From the NCBI RefSeq assembly GCF_900106535.1, contig NZ_FNOH01000006.1, positions 62,001 through 126,000 on the forward strand: DNA of 64,000 bases. Direction: 5' to 3'. Made by a program: the position numbers and the translations under genes. The notes below the pieces were generated by a model that saw nothing but the letters and a program-made list of their open reading frames with translations, was not told the origin of the DNA and made no database searches. Positions 27,784 to 35,666 of this stretch are shown in pieces. The stretch is from Myxococcus xanthus (lineage in GTDB: Bacteria; Myxococcota; Myxococcia; Myxococcales; Myxococcaceae). Position 1 is the first letter of the stretch. Every line of letters starts with the position of its first letter.

Positions 27784-28908
27784 TCACTTCGCGTCGATGG
27801 GGAAGGGACGGACTTCCCCCGCGAGCACCTGGTTGCGCGCCAGCAGCTTCGCGAACCGGTCCGTCCCGTTGCGTGTGTCGAAGCGGTTCGCGATGTCCCG
27901 GGCCTGCCCCAGCGTCCAGGCATGCAGGGCCCGGACGTCGTAGCCGCCATCCGCCTGGTGATTGGGGAACGTCTTGGGCAGCCGCAGGCTCACCACGTCC
28001 CTGTCTCCCGCGGCCAGCACCCGCTCCAGCAGGAAGGCGGCGGCGGCGTAGAAGGTGAAGCGGTCCCGGTAGCTCGGGTGGTCCAGCGCCCAGCCCAGGT
28101 GCTTCTCCAGCAGCGTCAGCCCGCGCGCCAGGTTGTCCGTCAGGGCGAGGAACTCCATGTGCTCGCCCACGGTGGAGAGGAACTCGCGGTTCTTCGTCAC
28201 CATGGCGTAGCCGCGGCGGTGGATTTCGCGCGCGTGCTCCAGCTCACCCAGCTTGAACAGCGGGTAGAGCACCGTGCCCAGCGTCAGGTGGGGAATCTCC
28301 GCGCAGGACTTGCGGCCGTCCAGGATGGGCTTCGCCTTGCGCAGCACCTGCTGCCATTCGCCCTTGTCGGCGTGGTGGTCCAGTTCGTCGTCCAGCTCGC
28401 ACACGCGGCAGTCGGTGAGGTGGTCGCGGCGCGTCTCCAGCCACGCGTTCCACAGCCGCTCCACTTCCTCGGCGGCGTCACCCATCTCCCGCGCGGCCTG
28501 GTAGCGCATCTTCAGCACCGCGCGCACCCCGGAGTCCGTGGCCCTGAAGCACTGCTCCACGTCGTCCAGCGCGTCCAGAATCTGCTTGCGGGTGATGTGA
28601 GGGAACTCCTTGATGCGCCCCACCACCCACTTCTGCTTCCAGAACATCTCCTCCGGGTCGAAGCGCTTCGGGTCCTTCTTCTGCTGTCCCCGGCACCACG
28701 CGAAGGCCACCAGCGCCTTGTCCGGGAAGCCGCCGAAGGTCGCCGCGTCGATGAGGGCATCTCGCATCCGGTAGCCCATGCCCACGTCCTTGTGCGTGTC
28801 CGCCAGGCGCACCGCCTCTTCCAGGAGCCGCACCTTGCTCTCGCCTTCAGCCAGGCCGTCCGCCTGAGCGAAGAGCGACTCCACCTGCTCGCGCCAGTCA
28901 CCACTCAT
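27784..28908 (-). CDS. Helical-repeat (TPR-like) protein coupled to the HSP90-family gene
   Basis: The protein has 374 residues. Its ATG overlaps the TGA of the HSP90-family gene (ATGA at 28905-28908 on this strand), so translation is coupled. The sequence is almost all amphipathic helix pairs, spaced as in tetratricopeptide repeats. Examples are ESLFAQADGLAEGESKVRLL followed by RLADTHKDVGMGYRMRD, FPDKALVAFAWCRGQQKKDP, and LGELEHAREIHRRGYAMV. I do not see a strict TPR consensus. There is no signal peptide. In eukaryotes HSP90 co-chaperones use TPR domains, so a co-chaperone or client-adaptor role is a reasonable inference, not shown. Confidence 0.75.
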   Translation of the reverse strand: MSGDWREQVESLFAQADGLAEGESKVRLLEEAVRLADTHKDVGMGYRMRDALIDAATFGGFPDKALVAFAWCRGQQKKDPKRFDPEEMFWKQKWVVGRIKEFPHITRKQILDALDDVEQCFRATDSGVRAVLKMRYQAAREMGDAAEEVERLWNAWLETRRDHLTDCRVCELDDELDHHADKGEWQQVLRKAKPILDGRKSCAEIPHLTLGTVLYPLFKLGELEHAREIHRRGYAMVTKNREFLSTVGEHMEFLALTDNLARGLTLLEKHLGWALDHPSYRDRFTFYAAAAFLLERVLAAGDRDVVSLRLPKTFPNHQADGGYDVRALHAWTLGQARDIANRFDTRNGTDRFAKLLARNQVLAGEVRPFPIDAK

Positions 28909-30764
28909 CAGTGCAGCCCCCGGGGACCCGCGCCGCCGCTGCCTTCGCCGCCGCGCCCGCCATCCCCGCCCAGTTGTGCGGAGATGAGGCCCAACAGGCC
29001 CTGGTTCAGCAGGACCATCTCCTGTGCGTTCAACGGATGGTGTCCCAAGAGCAGTGCTTGCACGTAGAGCATCTCCACCGACAGCTTCAGCATGTCCCGG
29101 TCCGCCACGGCGGCCAGCCGCCGCACCACCGGGTTGTGGAGGTTGAAGCACAACTGCGCCGGCTCGCTGCCCGAGGCCGCCATGACGCTGTCCAGCACGC
29201 CGGCGTACAGGTCATCCGACTCCTCGCGAGCCCGCTCGGCGTCGCGCCGGAACGCGCCCTCCGCGTCCGAGCTGTAGAGCGTGGGCACTTCCGCCGGGTA
29301 GAACTTCTTCACCACCGCGCCGCAGCGGAACGGCGCCAGCACGTTCTCCGCCATGCGCAGCAGCGGGAAGGTGGCCTCGCGCTCGTCCAGGGTGAGCTCA
29401 TCGAAGCTCTGCGGCAGGTCCGCGGAGGAGAAGGGCTCCACCTGCACGTCCGGCACCGCGTGCGGCAGCTTCTCCAGCAGCGACGTGTCGTGCGTGTACG
29501 CCGCGTTGATGATGCACAGGCCTTGGGCACCGGCCACCTGGGCAATCTGCCGGAAGCCGTCCAACGTGGACGTGTAGCGCACCACGGGGTGCGCGCGCCG
29601 GTAGTCCGCCAGCGTCATCATCCCCATCGACGTCTCGAAGGGCAGCCAGTGGATGATGAGGCGGTAGAAGTCATCGTCATCCAGCGCCAGCGCCTTCACG
29701 CTCAGCCCGTGCAGGGCAATCAGCCGCTGGAGCGCGCGTGGGTCCTCACGCGCCAGCTCCATCAGGTAGCCGCGCAGGGACTGCCCCAGGGACTCGCGCG
29801 CCGCGGCGAGCGCGTCGTCCTCGTAGAAGGACTCCCGGCTGGCGGTGGGCCGCAGCGCGTTGGCGTTCACCACGCACTTCACGAAGAAGGCCCACTCCGG
29901 CAGCAGGTTCTCCGCGCTCTCCGACAGCAGCATGTGCTTGAGGTACACGCGGTGCTTCTGGCGTGAGTTGAAGTGCGGCGACGCGGGCAGCACGTAGGCC
30001 ACCCCGTCCACGTCTCCCGCGGTGGAGCGCAGGGGGATGCAGTCGACGAAGTCCGTGTCGAACAGCTCGCGCCCGTAGGCGAGCAGCGCCTTGCGCCGCT
30101 CCGAGGCGCTGTCGTACTCGCGGCGCCAGGGGGCGCCGGAGGTGTCCAGCCGCTCGGTGCCCTGGTCCGTGGTGAGGTGGATGGGAAAGGGCAGCAGGCC
30201 GCCGTAGTGGCTGGCGAGGTTTCGCAGCCGCGTGGCGGTGAACCAATGCGCCATGTCCGGGCGGGCCACCAGGAACACCTGGGTGCCGGGCTGGGCGAGC
30301 GGGTGCTCGGAGGGCCGCACGGCGTACGTGCCGTCATGCCGGCCCCGCCACTCCAACGTGCGCCCGTCGCCGCGTGCCGAGCGCGTCACCACCAGCAGCT
30401 CGTCGCACACCATGAAGCAGGACAGCAGGCCGATACCGAACTGGCCGATGAAGTCGTTGCGGCGGGCCTCCAGGGCCTCGCGCTTGGAGGACTCACCGAT
30501 GGTGGCCAGGAAGCGGTGGATTTCGTCCTCGGTCAGCCCCACGCCGTCGTCGGTGAAGAGCAGGGTGGGCGGGCTGCCGTCCTGCTTCTCCATCAGCTCC
30601 AGCCGGACGGTGCCCGCGTGGCCGGGCTCCAGGAGCTGGCGGGCGCGGATGGCATCGGTCGCGTTCTGGAGCAGCTCGCGTACGTAGACGCCCGGGGAGC
30701 TGTACAGGTGATGTGACAGGAGGTCGATGACCCCGCGGAGGCTGACTTGAAATCGGTGGTCCAC
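28908..30764 (-). CDS. htpG: HSP90-family molecular chaperone (HtpG-like)
   Basis: The protein has 618 residues, close to E. coli HtpG (624). The GHKL ATPase pocket is intact: YVRELLQNATDAIRA with E30, N34 and D37, TDDGVGLTEDE near residue 73, and GQFGIGLLS at 107-115. The middle and C-terminal domains follow at the expected spacing. The sequence looks nearer to the actinobacterial 'HSP90 family' branch than to proteobacterial HtpG; that placement is a judgement by eye. No C-terminal MEEVD is present. It is cytoplasmic, and the next gene encodes a helical-repeat protein. Confidence 0.93.
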   Translation of the reverse strand: MDHRFQVSLRGVIDLLSHHLYSSPGVYVRELLQNATDAIRARQLLEPGHAGTVRLELMEKQDGSPPTLLFTDDGVGLTEDEIHRFLATIGESSKREALEARRNDFIGQFGIGLLSCFMVCDELLVVTRSARGDGRTLEWRGRHDGTYAVRPSEHPLAQPGTQVFLVARPDMAHWFTATRLRNLASHYGGLLPFPIHLTTDQGTERLDTSGAPWRREYDSASERRKALLAYGRELFDTDFVDCIPLRSTAGDVDGVAYVLPASPHFNSRQKHRVYLKHMLLSESAENLLPEWAFFVKCVVNANALRPTASRESFYEDDALAAARESLGQSLRGYLMELAREDPRALQRLIALHGLSVKALALDDDDFYRLIIHWLPFETSMGMMTLADYRRAHPVVRYTSTLDGFRQIAQVAGAQGLCIINAAYTHDTSLLEKLPHAVPDVQVEPFSSADLPQSFDELTLDEREATFPLLRMAENVLAPFRCGAVVKKFYPAEVPTLYSSDAEGAFRRDAERAREESDDLYAGVLDSVMAASGSEPAQLCFNLHNPVVRRLAAVADRDMLKLSVEMLYVQALLLGHHPLNAQEMVLLNQGLLGLISAQLGGDGGRGGEGSGGAGPRGLH

Positions 30765-31790: not shown

Positions 31791-31887
31791 GCACCGGGCG
31801 CGGATGGTTGGGTCCGGTAGAAGTGGCGGTTCTACGCCCGCTGACTTCCGGGCCTTGACCCTGTCCCGTGGCCGAGTGGAAACCAGA

Positions 31888-33333
31888 ATGCCCCTGGGTT
31901 ACATCCCGGTCCTCGCGCCGCGCATGGGCCTTGCCTGGCGCTCCAGGGGTGTTCCGGTGTTGGACTTCACCAAGGCGGGGTGGCTCTTGCCACTCCTGAC
32001 GGAGACGGTCGCCTTCGAGGCGGGCGCGCCGGCTCCGTCCGCGCCGCCGCTGGGCTCCGGGCGGGCCCGGGCTCGCGCGTACCTGCGGCGGACGCTGCGC
32101 GCCAGTGGCCTGCTGTACGGCACGCCCGCGGACGCACCCTCCGCGGCGGACGTGGCGCAGCCCACCGAGCTCCAGGCGCGCGTGCTGGAGGACCAGCTCT
32201 TCCGCGCCGTGGTGCGGACCCTGGCGCTGATGGCGCTGGAATTGGGCCGGCTCGTGGGGGCTCCAGCGGCCGTTCGCACCGAGCATCTCCTGGTCCTGTT
32301 CGCGGTGCTCACCGGAGAGCTGGAGCTGGCGGAGGCGGTGGACGCGGCGATTGCCTCGGGGCGTCCGGTGTCCCGGCGGCTGACGGCGAAGGTGGAAGCG
32401 TCGCTGGTGAAGCGCTCGCCCGTGCTGGCGGGGGACCCGGTCTACGGGCTGGTGTTGCACAACGGCGCGCAGTACGCGGACGCGCAGCTGTTCTGCCGGC
32501 AGGCCATCGACTACTTCTCGCGCGGCACGCTGCACCGCGAGCGGGCGCAGCGGCGGCTGGACTTCGCGGCGCGGCAGAAGGCGCTGCTGGTGGATGTGCT
32601 GACGGGGCTTGCGTGTGTGGACCGGGTGCCGGGCCTGCCCGCGCGCCGCGCCATCCTGCGGCAGGTGGAGTCCCTGCGGCTGCCGGCGGCGATGACGTCC
32701 GAGCTCAAGGCCGCGGTGAAGCAGTCCTTCGCCCGCCGCCGCCCGGTGCAGGACGTGGTGCGCCAGGTGCGCAGCGTGGACGTGCGCCACTTCCTGCTGG
32801 AGCAGACGTTGCTGGCGGCGCTGGTGGATGGCCGCAAGACGCGGCGTGAGCGCGTCTTCATCCGCGAGCTGGCGCAGGCGCTCCAGGTCCCGGACGCGGA
32901 GCTGCACCGGCTGGAGCTGGAGATGGCGGAGTTCTACGCCCGCCACCGCGCCATCGTGGACGTCTTCACCGTGTCGGACGCCGCGGGCGCCATGGGCGAG
33001 GACCTGGTGGCCGGCATCCAGGAGGCGCTGGAGAAGAACTTCTACCGGCTGATGCAGGAGGTCCGCGAGACGGGCGACCTGGCGGTGCTGCTGACGAAGG
33101 CGGCCCGGCGTCAGGCGCTCACGGGCGACGAGCGCCGGCGCATGCGCGCGCAACTCGTCGATGTGGCCAAGGCGATTCCCGCGCTGGCCATCTTCGCGGC
33201 GCCCGGCGGCATCCTGCTGCTCGCGGCGTTGGGGAAGGTGCTGCCCTTCAGCCTGCTGCCCAGCGCCTTCCAGGAGGCCGCGCCCGCCGAGGAGGACTTC
33301 GAGGGCGTGGGCCCGGAGCGAGAGGCCGGCTGA
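31888..33333 (+). CDS. TerB-like and LETM1-like membrane-associated protein
   Basis: The protein has 481 residues from ATG 31888; the ribosome site is weak and an upstream start is possible. It is mostly helical. Near residues 290-350 is a TerB-like segment (LLEQTLLAALVDGRKTRRER, then VFIRELAQALQVPDAELHRL). The last 80 residues (LVDVAKAIPALAIFAAPGGI, then LLLAALGKVLPFSLLPSAF) match the pattern of the LETM1 membrane segment, with its polar helix, Pro-containing hydrophobic stretch and FPxxLPSxF-like end. LETM1 proteins act in cation homeostasis of mitochondria; bacterial relatives are poorly understood. It lies between a hydrolase and a FUSC transporter. Confidence 0.65.
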   Translation: MPLGYIPVLAPRMGLAWRSRGVPVLDFTKAGWLLPLLTETVAFEAGAPAPSAPPLGSGRARARAYLRRTLRASGLLYGTPADAPSAADVAQPTELQARVLEDQLFRAVVRTLALMALELGRLVGAPAAVRTEHLLVLFAVLTGELELAEAVDAAIASGRPVSRRLTAKVEASLVKRSPVLAGDPVYGLVLHNGAQYADAQLFCRQAIDYFSRGTLHRERAQRRLDFAARQKALLVDVLTGLACVDRVPGLPARRAILRQVESLRLPAAMTSELKAAVKQSFARRRPVQDVVRQVRSVDVRHFLLEQTLLAALVDGRKTRRERVFIRELAQALQVPDAELHRLELEMAEFYARHRAIVDVFTVSDAAGAMGEDLVAGIQEALEKNFYRLMQEVRETGDLAVLLTKAARRQALTGDERRRMRAQLVDVAKAIPALAIFAAPGGILLLAALGKVLPFSLLPSAFQEAAPAEEDFEGVGPEREAG

Positions 33334-33488: not shown

Positions 33489-35666
33489 ATGAGTCCGCTC
33501 CGTCATCACCTCCAGGCCTTCCTCCGCGTGGAGCCGGGCCGTCCCGCGTATGGCGCCGGGGTCCGCGCCGCGCTTGCGGTGGGTGGGCCCATGGCCGTCG
33601 CGGCCCTGCTGCACCTTCCCGCGGCCACGTGGGTCGGTATGGCCGCGCTCTTCGTTGCCCTGGTGGACCGGGGCGGGCCCTACTGGGACCGCGCGCTCAC
33701 CATGGGCGCCATGACGCTCCTGGGCTCCGTGGTGGGCCTGGCCGCGGCGCTGCACCTGCCCGCGTGGGCCGCCGTCATCGCCACGCTGTTCTGGGTGACG
33801 GCGTGTGGCTTCGCCCGCTCGTATGGGGACACGCCCGGGTTGATGGGCGTGGTGCTCGCCAACTACTTCGTGGTGTCGCTCGCGCTTCCCGCCAACGACG
33901 TGGCTGACGCATTGCTGCGCTCCGGCTTGTTCCTGGTGGGCGGCGCGTGGGCCATGTTCCTCGCGCTGATGCTGTGGCCGCTGGTGCCCTACCGGCCCGC
34001 GCGCCTGGCCATCGCGCGGTGTTACGACGCGCTGGCGGACCATGCGGAAGAGGTGGGGCGCTGGCCGCTCGAAGGGGGGGCGTCCGCCGCCGCGGGTGTC
34101 CTGCCGGAGGCGCCCTGGCAGGCCCGCATGCGTCAGCTCATCGAACAAGCGCGCACCGTGCTGGCCTCCACGCGCATGGGCCGGGCGGGGGAGAGCGGCC
34201 GGGGCGAACAGCTGCTGGTGCTGGTCGAAGGCGCGGATTCGATGATGGTGACGCTCATCGCGCTGACGGAGATGCTGGAGGTGGCGCCCGCCGAGCCCCG
34301 CTATCACGCGCTCCGAGCGGAGGTGCAGCGCGCGCTGGCGGAGCTGACCGCGGACCTGCGCCGCGTCCGGTTTGCTCTGGAGAAGGGGACGGAGGTGAGC
34401 GCCCAGTCGGTCTGGAACGCCGAGCGGGTGAAGCGGGCCCTGGATGCGCTGGACACGGCGGGCGGCGTGCCGGAGCCGGTGCGCGCCGGCTATCAATACG
34501 TGCACACGCTGCTGGACCGCCTGCGGGACTATTCCCACGCGACGGTGGAGGTGGCGGCGCGGCTGGAGGGCCGCGCGCCCGTGCCGGACGCCCTGGCGCT
34601 GCCCGCGCGGCGGGTGGAGGCGGCGCCGCGGCAGGCCCTCCTGGAGCCGCTGCGGGAGAATCTCAACGTCCGCTCCGTCATCTTCCGTCACGCGCTGCGG
34701 CTGGGCGTCGCGGCCGCGCTGGCCACCGCGCTCGTGGGGGCGCTGGGATTGAATCACGGCTACTGGGTCATCATCACCGTCACCGTCGTCCTGCAGCCCT
34801 ACGCAGGCCTCACGTTCCAGCGGAGCCTGCAGCGCATCGCGGGCACGCTGCTGGGCGCGGCGCTGGCCGCGGGTCTGGTGGCGTTGGTGAGGGACCCGGC
34901 CATCATCCTGCTGGCCATCGGGGGGCTGTTCGCGGTGGCGATGAGCATCCAGCCGCTCAGCCTGTCCGCGTTCCAGGTGCTGCTGACTCCGGCCCTGGTG
35001 CTGCTGGCGGAACTCCAGAGCGGGGACTGGGAGCTGGCCGGGGTGCGCATCGTCAACACGCTGCTGGGAGGGCTGATTGCGCTGACGGTGACGCGGCTCT
35101 TGTGGCCCAGCCCGGAGCACCTGCGTCTGCCGGAGCAGGTGGCCTTCGCGTTGCGCGCGGACCGCGAATACCTGATGGCGGTGGCCGCCGCGCACTCGGA
35201 CTCGGAGCCCGCGGTGCGCGAGGCCCGGCGGAAGATAGGCCTGGCGCTGCTGGCGGCGGAGGCGTCCTTCCAGCGGCTGCTGAGTGAGTGGACCGGGCCC
35301 GCCAAGGACCTGGAGCCGGTGATGGCGCTGCTGGTCTACGCGCGGCGCTTCACGTCGGCGGTGACGACGCTGGCCGCCAGTCGCGCGGACCCGGCGTCCC
35401 CCCGGGAACTCTCCGAGGTGGTGCGCTTCGCCGGGGGCGTGTTGGACGAACTGGCGGCGGCCATGGAGCAGCAACGCCGGCCCGCGCCCATGCCCGCCAC
35501 GGTTCCGGCGGGTGGGGCGGATGCGCTGTCGCGCGCGCACGTGGAGCGGCTCGTGCGACAGCTCACCGTGCTGCACCACGCGGCGGAGCGTGTCCCGCCG
35601 CTGCGGCTCAAGGAGGGCGTCAGGGCCGGTCGAGCGTCGTCACCAGGCGCCGCAGGTCCTCGTTGA
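33489..35666 (+). CDS. FUSC-family membrane protein (aromatic-acid-exporter-like)
   Basis: The protein has 725 residues in the order hydrophobic half, soluble helical part, hydrophobic half, soluble tail. The first membrane block (about 25-165) includes LTMGAMTLLGSVVGLAAALH. A soluble region of about 220 residues follows. A second block starts at SVIFRHALRLGVAAALATAL (about residue 396) and contains YWVIITVTVVLQPYAGLTF, the typical FUSC motif. This architecture is shared with YccS/YhfK and AaeB exporters. It should export organic acids across the inner membrane, but no AaeA-like partner is nearby. Its last 47 bases overlap the convergent HEAT-repeat gene. Confidence 0.83.
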   Translation: MSPLRHHLQAFLRVEPGRPAYGAGVRAALAVGGPMAVAALLHLPAATWVGMAALFVALVDRGGPYWDRALTMGAMTLLGSVVGLAAALHLPAWAAVIATLFWVTACGFARSYGDTPGLMGVVLANYFVVSLALPANDVADALLRSGLFLVGGAWAMFLALMLWPLVPYRPARLAIARCYDALADHAEEVGRWPLEGGASAAAGVLPEAPWQARMRQLIEQARTVLASTRMGRAGESGRGEQLLVLVEGADSMMVTLIALTEMLEVAPAEPRYHALRAEVQRALAELTADLRRVRFALEKGTEVSAQSVWNAERVKRALDALDTAGGVPEPVRAGYQYVHTLLDRLRDYSHATVEVAARLEGRAPVPDALALPARRVEAAPRQALLEPLRENLNVRSVIFRHALRLGVAAALATALVGALGLNHGYWVIITVTVVLQPYAGLTFQRSLQRIAGTLLGAALAAGLVALVRDPAIILLAIGGLFAVAMSIQPLSLSAFQVLLTPALVLLAELQSGDWELAGVRIVNTLLGGLIALTVTRLLWPSPEHLRLPEQVAFALRADREYLMAVAAAHSDSEPAVREARRKIGLALLAAEASFQRLLSEWTGPAKDLEPVMALLVYARRFTSAVTTLAASRADPASPRELSEVVRFAGGVLDELAAAMEQQRRPAPMPATVPAGGADALSRAHVERLVRQLTVLHHAAERVPPLRLKEGVRAGRASSPGAAGPR

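Follow-up and report, generated by a model that had tools for sequence, protein, structure and literature searches.

A divergent bacterial HSP90 encoded in one operon with a protein of predicted TPR superhelix fold

The window, by which we mean the whole 64,000-nucleotide stretch of Myxococcus xanthus DNA analysed here, carries a gene for an HSP90 family protein followed directly by a gene for a second protein, referred to below as the partner. The features of both genes are collected in Table 1. Their junction reads CTGCACTGATGAGTGG, and one base is common to the stop codon TGA of the HSP90 gene and the ATG of the partner gene. The original prediction was of an intact HSP90 whose stop codon overlaps the start of a 374-residue protein built of helices. 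All of these elements were recovered: both open reading frames lie where they were placed, with the TGATG junction between them, the match of the HSP90 to the NF010683 profile spans residues 1-599 (826 bits against a cut-off of 455), and the AF2 model of the partner is helical from residue 5 to residue 363 with a mean pLDDT of 96.9. The third-position GC content was 0.93-0.94 in both genes alike. The gene upstream of HSP90 codes for a PRK00685-type metal-dependent hydrolase and is divergent, and tex, downstream of the partner gene, is convergent. Since both flanking genes are on the plus strand, HSP90 and the partner form a two-gene operon by layout. Elsewhere in the window, positions 31804-33333 (plus strand) code for a protein of 509 aa whose only matches, TerB and LETM1-like, stayed sub-threshold and which adjoins a FUSC-type transporter (33489-35666).

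Table 1. Positions of the two genes, their junction and the conserved sites of the partner in the window.
Feature	Coordinates	Strand	Remarks
HSP90 family protein (NF010683/PRK14083 clade)	28908..30764	-	618 aa, GTG start; N-terminal, middle and C-terminal domains
Partner, predicted TPR superhelix, unnamed family	27784..28908	-	374 aa, ATG start
TGATG stop/start overlap (putative translational coupling)	28906..28910	-	read from sequence
D166-C167 of partner, first part of DCxxC site	28408..28413	-	C167 in 57/60 relatives
C170 of partner	28399..28401	-	57/60; lost only jointly with C167 and C202
C202 of partner (C-x-x-x-P)	28303..28305	-	57/60; lost only jointly with C167 and C170
FDTRNG motif (FDxRNG), partner residues 343-348	27865..27882	-	N347 60/60, R346 59/60, D344 58/60

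The profile search identified the HSP90 of the window as a full-length member of NF010683/PRK14083 ('HSP90 family protein'), a profile whose description names no partner. With the canonical HtpG profile, NF003555, it scored 182 bits, below the cut-off of 371, and its Pfam matches were PF13589 and PF00183. A second, canonical HtpG is encoded separately in the source genome. In the tree, the canonical HtpG copies and the NF010683 type were split by a branch with 100/100 support. The HSP90 of the window belongs to a divergent clade apart from canonical HtpG. The original prediction had framed it as a bacterial HtpG and needs correction on this point; the canonical HtpG of the genome has no such partner. 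The two types have the same three-domain fold. In the AF2 model of the window HSP90 (pLDDT 89.9), residues 6-595 align to full-length HtpG and TRAP1, which indicates that all three HSP90 domains are present; one structure match was HtpG 9a6t_B (Z 30.2, 7.0 Å, 546 residues). Residues E30, N34, D72, G74, G76, G107, G110, G112 and R310 were invariant in the 56 sequences compared, and we take them to be the catalytic E, the N, the DxGxG motif, the lid G motif and the middle-domain R. The N-terminal ATPase domain also gave weak matches to the defence ATPases TmtA and MzaB, which were confined to the common N-terminal ATPase fold. A search of about 80 loci, tolerating 4 or 3 mismatches, detected no CIRCE or HAIR heat-shock operators upstream of the HSP90 gene.

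In eukaryotes, TPR co-chaperones bind the MEEVD tail of HSP90. The model of the window HSP90 shows the last ~15 residues as disordered, and this tail differs from species to species. No HSP90 tail seen has EEVD at its end (the tail ends with RGLH in the window and with RILEML in Listeria). Because the tails are variable and lack MEEVD, docking of the eukaryotic type was ruled out. The analogy with eukaryotic HSP90-TPR pairs drawn in the original prediction stands for the TPR-type fold and the one-operon pair, and it fails for MEEVD docking.

By sequence, the partner had no match in Pfam, PADLOC or the PDB and no meaningful match in NCBIfam. A TPR profile search, proposed together with the original prediction, gave a divided result: Pfam TPR repeats were not matched in the window protein (0 matches), and partial, weak TPR matches appeared in some of its 60 relatives, the best being TPR_12 in 8 members. 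When the PDB was searched by profile with the partner, the matches were all generic repeat proteins or designed helical proteins. The AF2 model built with 60 natural homologues (pTM 0.94) consists of antiparallel helix pairs in one continuous superhelix. It was aligned with an APC/C subunit (chain O) over 331 residues (Z 22.9, 5.3 Å) and with MalT domain III over 323 residues (Z 21.9, 5.2 Å). As the whole-length structure matches are all TPR superhelices, the partner is, in its predicted fold, a TPR-type superhelix.

The partner family has two conserved sites that were not part of the original prediction: a site of three cysteines and a C-terminal FDxRNG motif, the latter spanning the penultimate helix and the subsequent turn. 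Further conserved positions among the 60 relatives were R49, W90, K93 and D116. The three partners without the cysteines all come from actinobacteria, namely Nocardia, Pseudonocardia and Actinocrispum (L129, L146 and L118), and the simultaneous loss may be a single event. The all-or-none pattern suggests that the three cysteines form a metal site.

To describe how widespread the pair is, three surveys were made, in which the same genomes were searched for both HSP90 and the partner: 195 genomes of Myxococcota, 326 of Actinomycetota and 220 of Bacilli (741 in total), each set being a sample of its group. Across them, 98 of 100 copies of the NF010683 HSP90 had the partner adjacent on the same strand. 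The two exceptions are a copy at the edge of its contig and a copy that overlaps a TPR gene of another family. In Myxococcota, 64 genomes had both genes, adjacent and on the same strand, one had HSP90 only (the copy at the contig edge), one had the partner only and 129 had neither; these counts are far beyond chance. The HSP90 was present in all 27 sampled genomes of the window's genus. Actinomycetota yielded 13 HSP90 copies in 11 genomes, 12 of them with an adjacent partner, and two genomes with the partner only; G223 and G361 each have two HSP90 copies and two adjacent partners. All 22 HSP90 copies found in Bacilli had an adjacent partner, although in G595 the nearest partner piece is a remnant and the full copy follows it. 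The pair thus survived the refuting condition set with the original prediction, namely that the partner would be missing beside this HSP90 in related genomes. As a separate observation, seven Bacilli genomes without the NF010683 HSP90 code for a protein of about 355-375 aa that remotely resembles the partner (L195-L201) and was matched over the middle of the profile only (example, L209:8308-9372).

A related-locus search of genome contigs was performed with HSP90 as bait. Its best 80 loci, a set skewed towards sequences similar to the query, comprised 73 with the partner downstream on the same strand, one convergent pair, three at contig ends and three with the partner elsewhere. In these last three (L093, L097 and L110), the partner was still found in the same genome. 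A start codon overlapped the HSP90 stop codon in 52 of the 73 downstream pairs. Besides the surveyed groups, the best 80 loci included Planctomycetota, Acidobacteriota, Deinococcota, Bacteroidota, Pseudomonadota and a Desulfobacterales genome. Neighbour clustering revealed only HSP90 (86 loci) and the partner (80 loci) as common across phyla, the next cluster of the same type having 14, and no third conserved neighbour emerged. A third large cluster was discounted, as it consisted of antisense reading frames of the HSP90 and partner genes. The pairwise distances of HSP90 and partner were correlated (Mantel r 0.66; 0 of 2000 permutations), a result that shared descent alone can yield, and those of the partner were about 1.7 times those of HSP90. 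The pair is old, widely conserved and encoded in one operon.

Several loci depart from the common arrangement. The HSP90 of G525 (Actinomycetota, L206:8593-11366) is a weak NF010683 member (454 bits; 480 with its neighbours) and shares an ATGA overlap with an unrelated gene that has Pfam TPR matches, as though this gene had taken the place of the usual partner. G033, a relative of the window's genome (L152:2393-6773), has a third HSP90-like gene, a divergent one (282 bits), and 37 bp downstream of it lies a gene for a 766-aa TPR protein with a CxxC motif (PCFTC). Together, the two loci indicate that TPR genes follow HSP90s of the wider group even where the TPR family differs. In Listeria (L037, L099 and L121), the partner is duplicated and HSP90 is single. 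L037 has one HSP90 and then two tandem partners, adjoining fri. Going by gene order, the three genes correspond to lmo0942, lmo0941 and lmo0940; lmo0941 is still labelled hypothetical (PMC6901971). The actinobacterial partner is usually 700-1000 aa long, with an added TPR array. A natural fusion of HSP90 and partner was absent from loci L070-L152. In phage records, the partner was found in five unannotated entries only, four labelled Listeria phage and one fecal 'Bacteriophage sp.'; the Listeria records may be stray host DNA.

Homologues of the partner without HSP90 were found in G034, G371, G404 and Actinomyces oris, and as a second copy in G198, which means that the TPR protein can do without HSP90 in some lineages. 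Genes for YbjN (PF10722) lie directly upstream of such homologues in two Micromonospora-like genomes (L204:8532-10606 and L205:8322-10459) and in A. oris (L035:4310-9024). The homologue of L204 is itself fused to YbjN, which forms its C-terminal domain (residues 422-546, family E 1e-16). Members of this TPR family thus occur beside or fused to YbjN in some actinobacteria; this association concerns a few HSP90-less copies only, and YbjN did not emerge as a conserved neighbour at the HSP90-linked loci. G034 belongs to the window's own family and keeps the partner (L150:6517-7692, 431 bits); the NF010683 HSP90 was not found in that genome, a possible case of HSP90 loss.

The pair was also compared with known systems. 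Chen et al. (2006, PMC1525184) described S. coelicolor and certain further species as having two HTPG copies of different groups; a text search of that paper gave no mention of an operon. The NF010683 type is probably one of these groups and possibly Group C, the latter assignment being drawn from a sequence set without a Group C reference. The eukaryotic TPR co-chaperones Hop/Sti1, FKBP51, CHIP and PP5 resemble the present case in that an HSP90 is paired with a TPR-fold protein. The differences are that the window HSP90 has no MEEVD tail and that the partner, which shows no detectable sequence match to them, is a single long, operon-encoded superhelix with the three-cysteine site and FDxRNG; the bacterial pair is known here from genes and predicted folds. 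MalT domain III and the Rap, NprR and AimR sensors have TPR superhelices similar in length to the partner. However, identity to them is ~10%, no DNA-binding or other effector domain was found in the partner, and, unlike them, it sits in an HSP90 operon. Canonical HtpG was rejected as a carrier of the partner, since none of eight checked copies had the partner family nearby. At two of those eight loci, both in the window's genus (L210:4689-6329 and L216:6553-8118), a downstream frame resembles an exported TPR lipoprotein. TPR genes close to HSP90 are therefore not rare in Myxococcus overall, and the argument rests on one conserved family and not on TPR proteins in general. A description of the HSP90-partner pair was not found in a search of mainly open-access literature.

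The explanation that we prefer, and to which we assign a little over an even chance, is that the two genes form one functional unit, i.e., a second bacterial HSP90 type with a TPR co-chaperone or client adaptor that is dedicated to it and encoded in its operon. The adjacency of 98 of 100 copies, the frequent start/stop overlap, the lack of a third neighbour and the co-occurrence of the genes when unlinked support a functional unit. The genomes with two HSP90 copies and two partners, the conserved ATPase residues and the correlated distances were also counted in its favour. Duplication of the partner alone, the longer actinobacterial TPR array and the presence of another TPR family at this place fit an adaptor; the absence of fusions and the existence of HSP90-less homologues were counted against a co-chaperone. 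Both proteins would arise from one mRNA by coupled translation, and the TPR protein would act as co-chaperone or client adaptor of the second HSP90 type. The groove of its superhelix may hold a client or a partner protein, and it would dock on a folded domain of HSP90 instead of a C-terminal MEEVD peptide, so that the ATP cycle of HSP90 would be directed to a narrow client set. The three cysteines probably bind a metal (zinc), which would stiffen or redox-tune the middle of the superhelix, and in actinobacteria the same domain is lengthened by the further TPR array. That the partner is an obligate co-chaperone, encoded in the operon, docking without MEEVD on a bacterial HSP90 paralogue and equipped with a metal site, is plausible, and we hold it tentatively, at somewhat below an even chance.

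The main rival makes the TPR protein the dedicated client of its HSP90: the substrate would be a TPR sensor or scaffold of MalT/Rap-like fold that could fold or be held ready only through its own chaperone, as in other chaperone-client operons, with the cysteine and FDxRNG features serving its own signalling job. The best bacterial fold matches are indeed ligand- or peptide-sensing TPR proteins (MalT, Rap, NprR and AimR), the partner is more divergent than HSP90, its actinobacterial forms have a large extra TPR array, and homologues exist without HSP90, some of them paired with or fused to YbjN. Yet similarity among TPR-array folds says little on function, and the unrelated TPR proteins in the same place in G525 and G033 better fit a generic HSP90-TPR relationship. 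We regard a dedicated client as possible but doubtful. A two-part stress or conflict module, in which a GHKL ATPase effector and a TPR sensor would make a signalling switch and not a folding machine, is in our opinion unlikely. It would agree with the patchy distribution (11 of 326 Actinomycetota and 22 of 220 Bacilli genomes) and with the weak TmtA and MzaB matches, but these reach no further than the common ATPase fold. Moreover, the HSP90 retains its three domains and its conserved ATPase residues, the neighbours in the window are housekeeping genes (tex and the metal-dependent hydrolase) and not a defence island, and HSP90 is present throughout the sampled genomes of the genus. Neutral linkage of two co-transcribed but functionally unrelated genes has in its favour that the functional link of the pair is itself deduced. 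Given linkage in three distant groups, no third conserved neighbour and co-occurrence even of unlinked genes, it is very unlikely.

The HSP90 type was already known, as the NF010683 profile; what is new is an HSP90-TPR pairing in bacteria that involves another HSP90 clade and another TPR family, and no MEEVD. Hsp90 cochaperones have been stated to be absent in bacteria (PMC6520445). Against this view stands a near-invariant HSP90-TPR gene pair in many phyla, an exception that is specific and easy to test; it suggests that bacteria may have an HSP90 helper protein after all. Paenibacillus, Streptomyces and Myxococcus are tractable hosts for such a test. If the TPR protein binds and directs HSP90, co-chaperone dependence would not be a eukaryotic invention, and the pair would serve as a minimal system of two proteins in which to study how HSP90 is steered by TPR proteins. 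If the partner is an obligate co-chaperone, the bacterial HSP90-TPR partnership would be independent of the eukaryotic one or would precede it, and, with unrelated TPR genes after the HSP90s of G525 and G033, it perhaps arose more than once.
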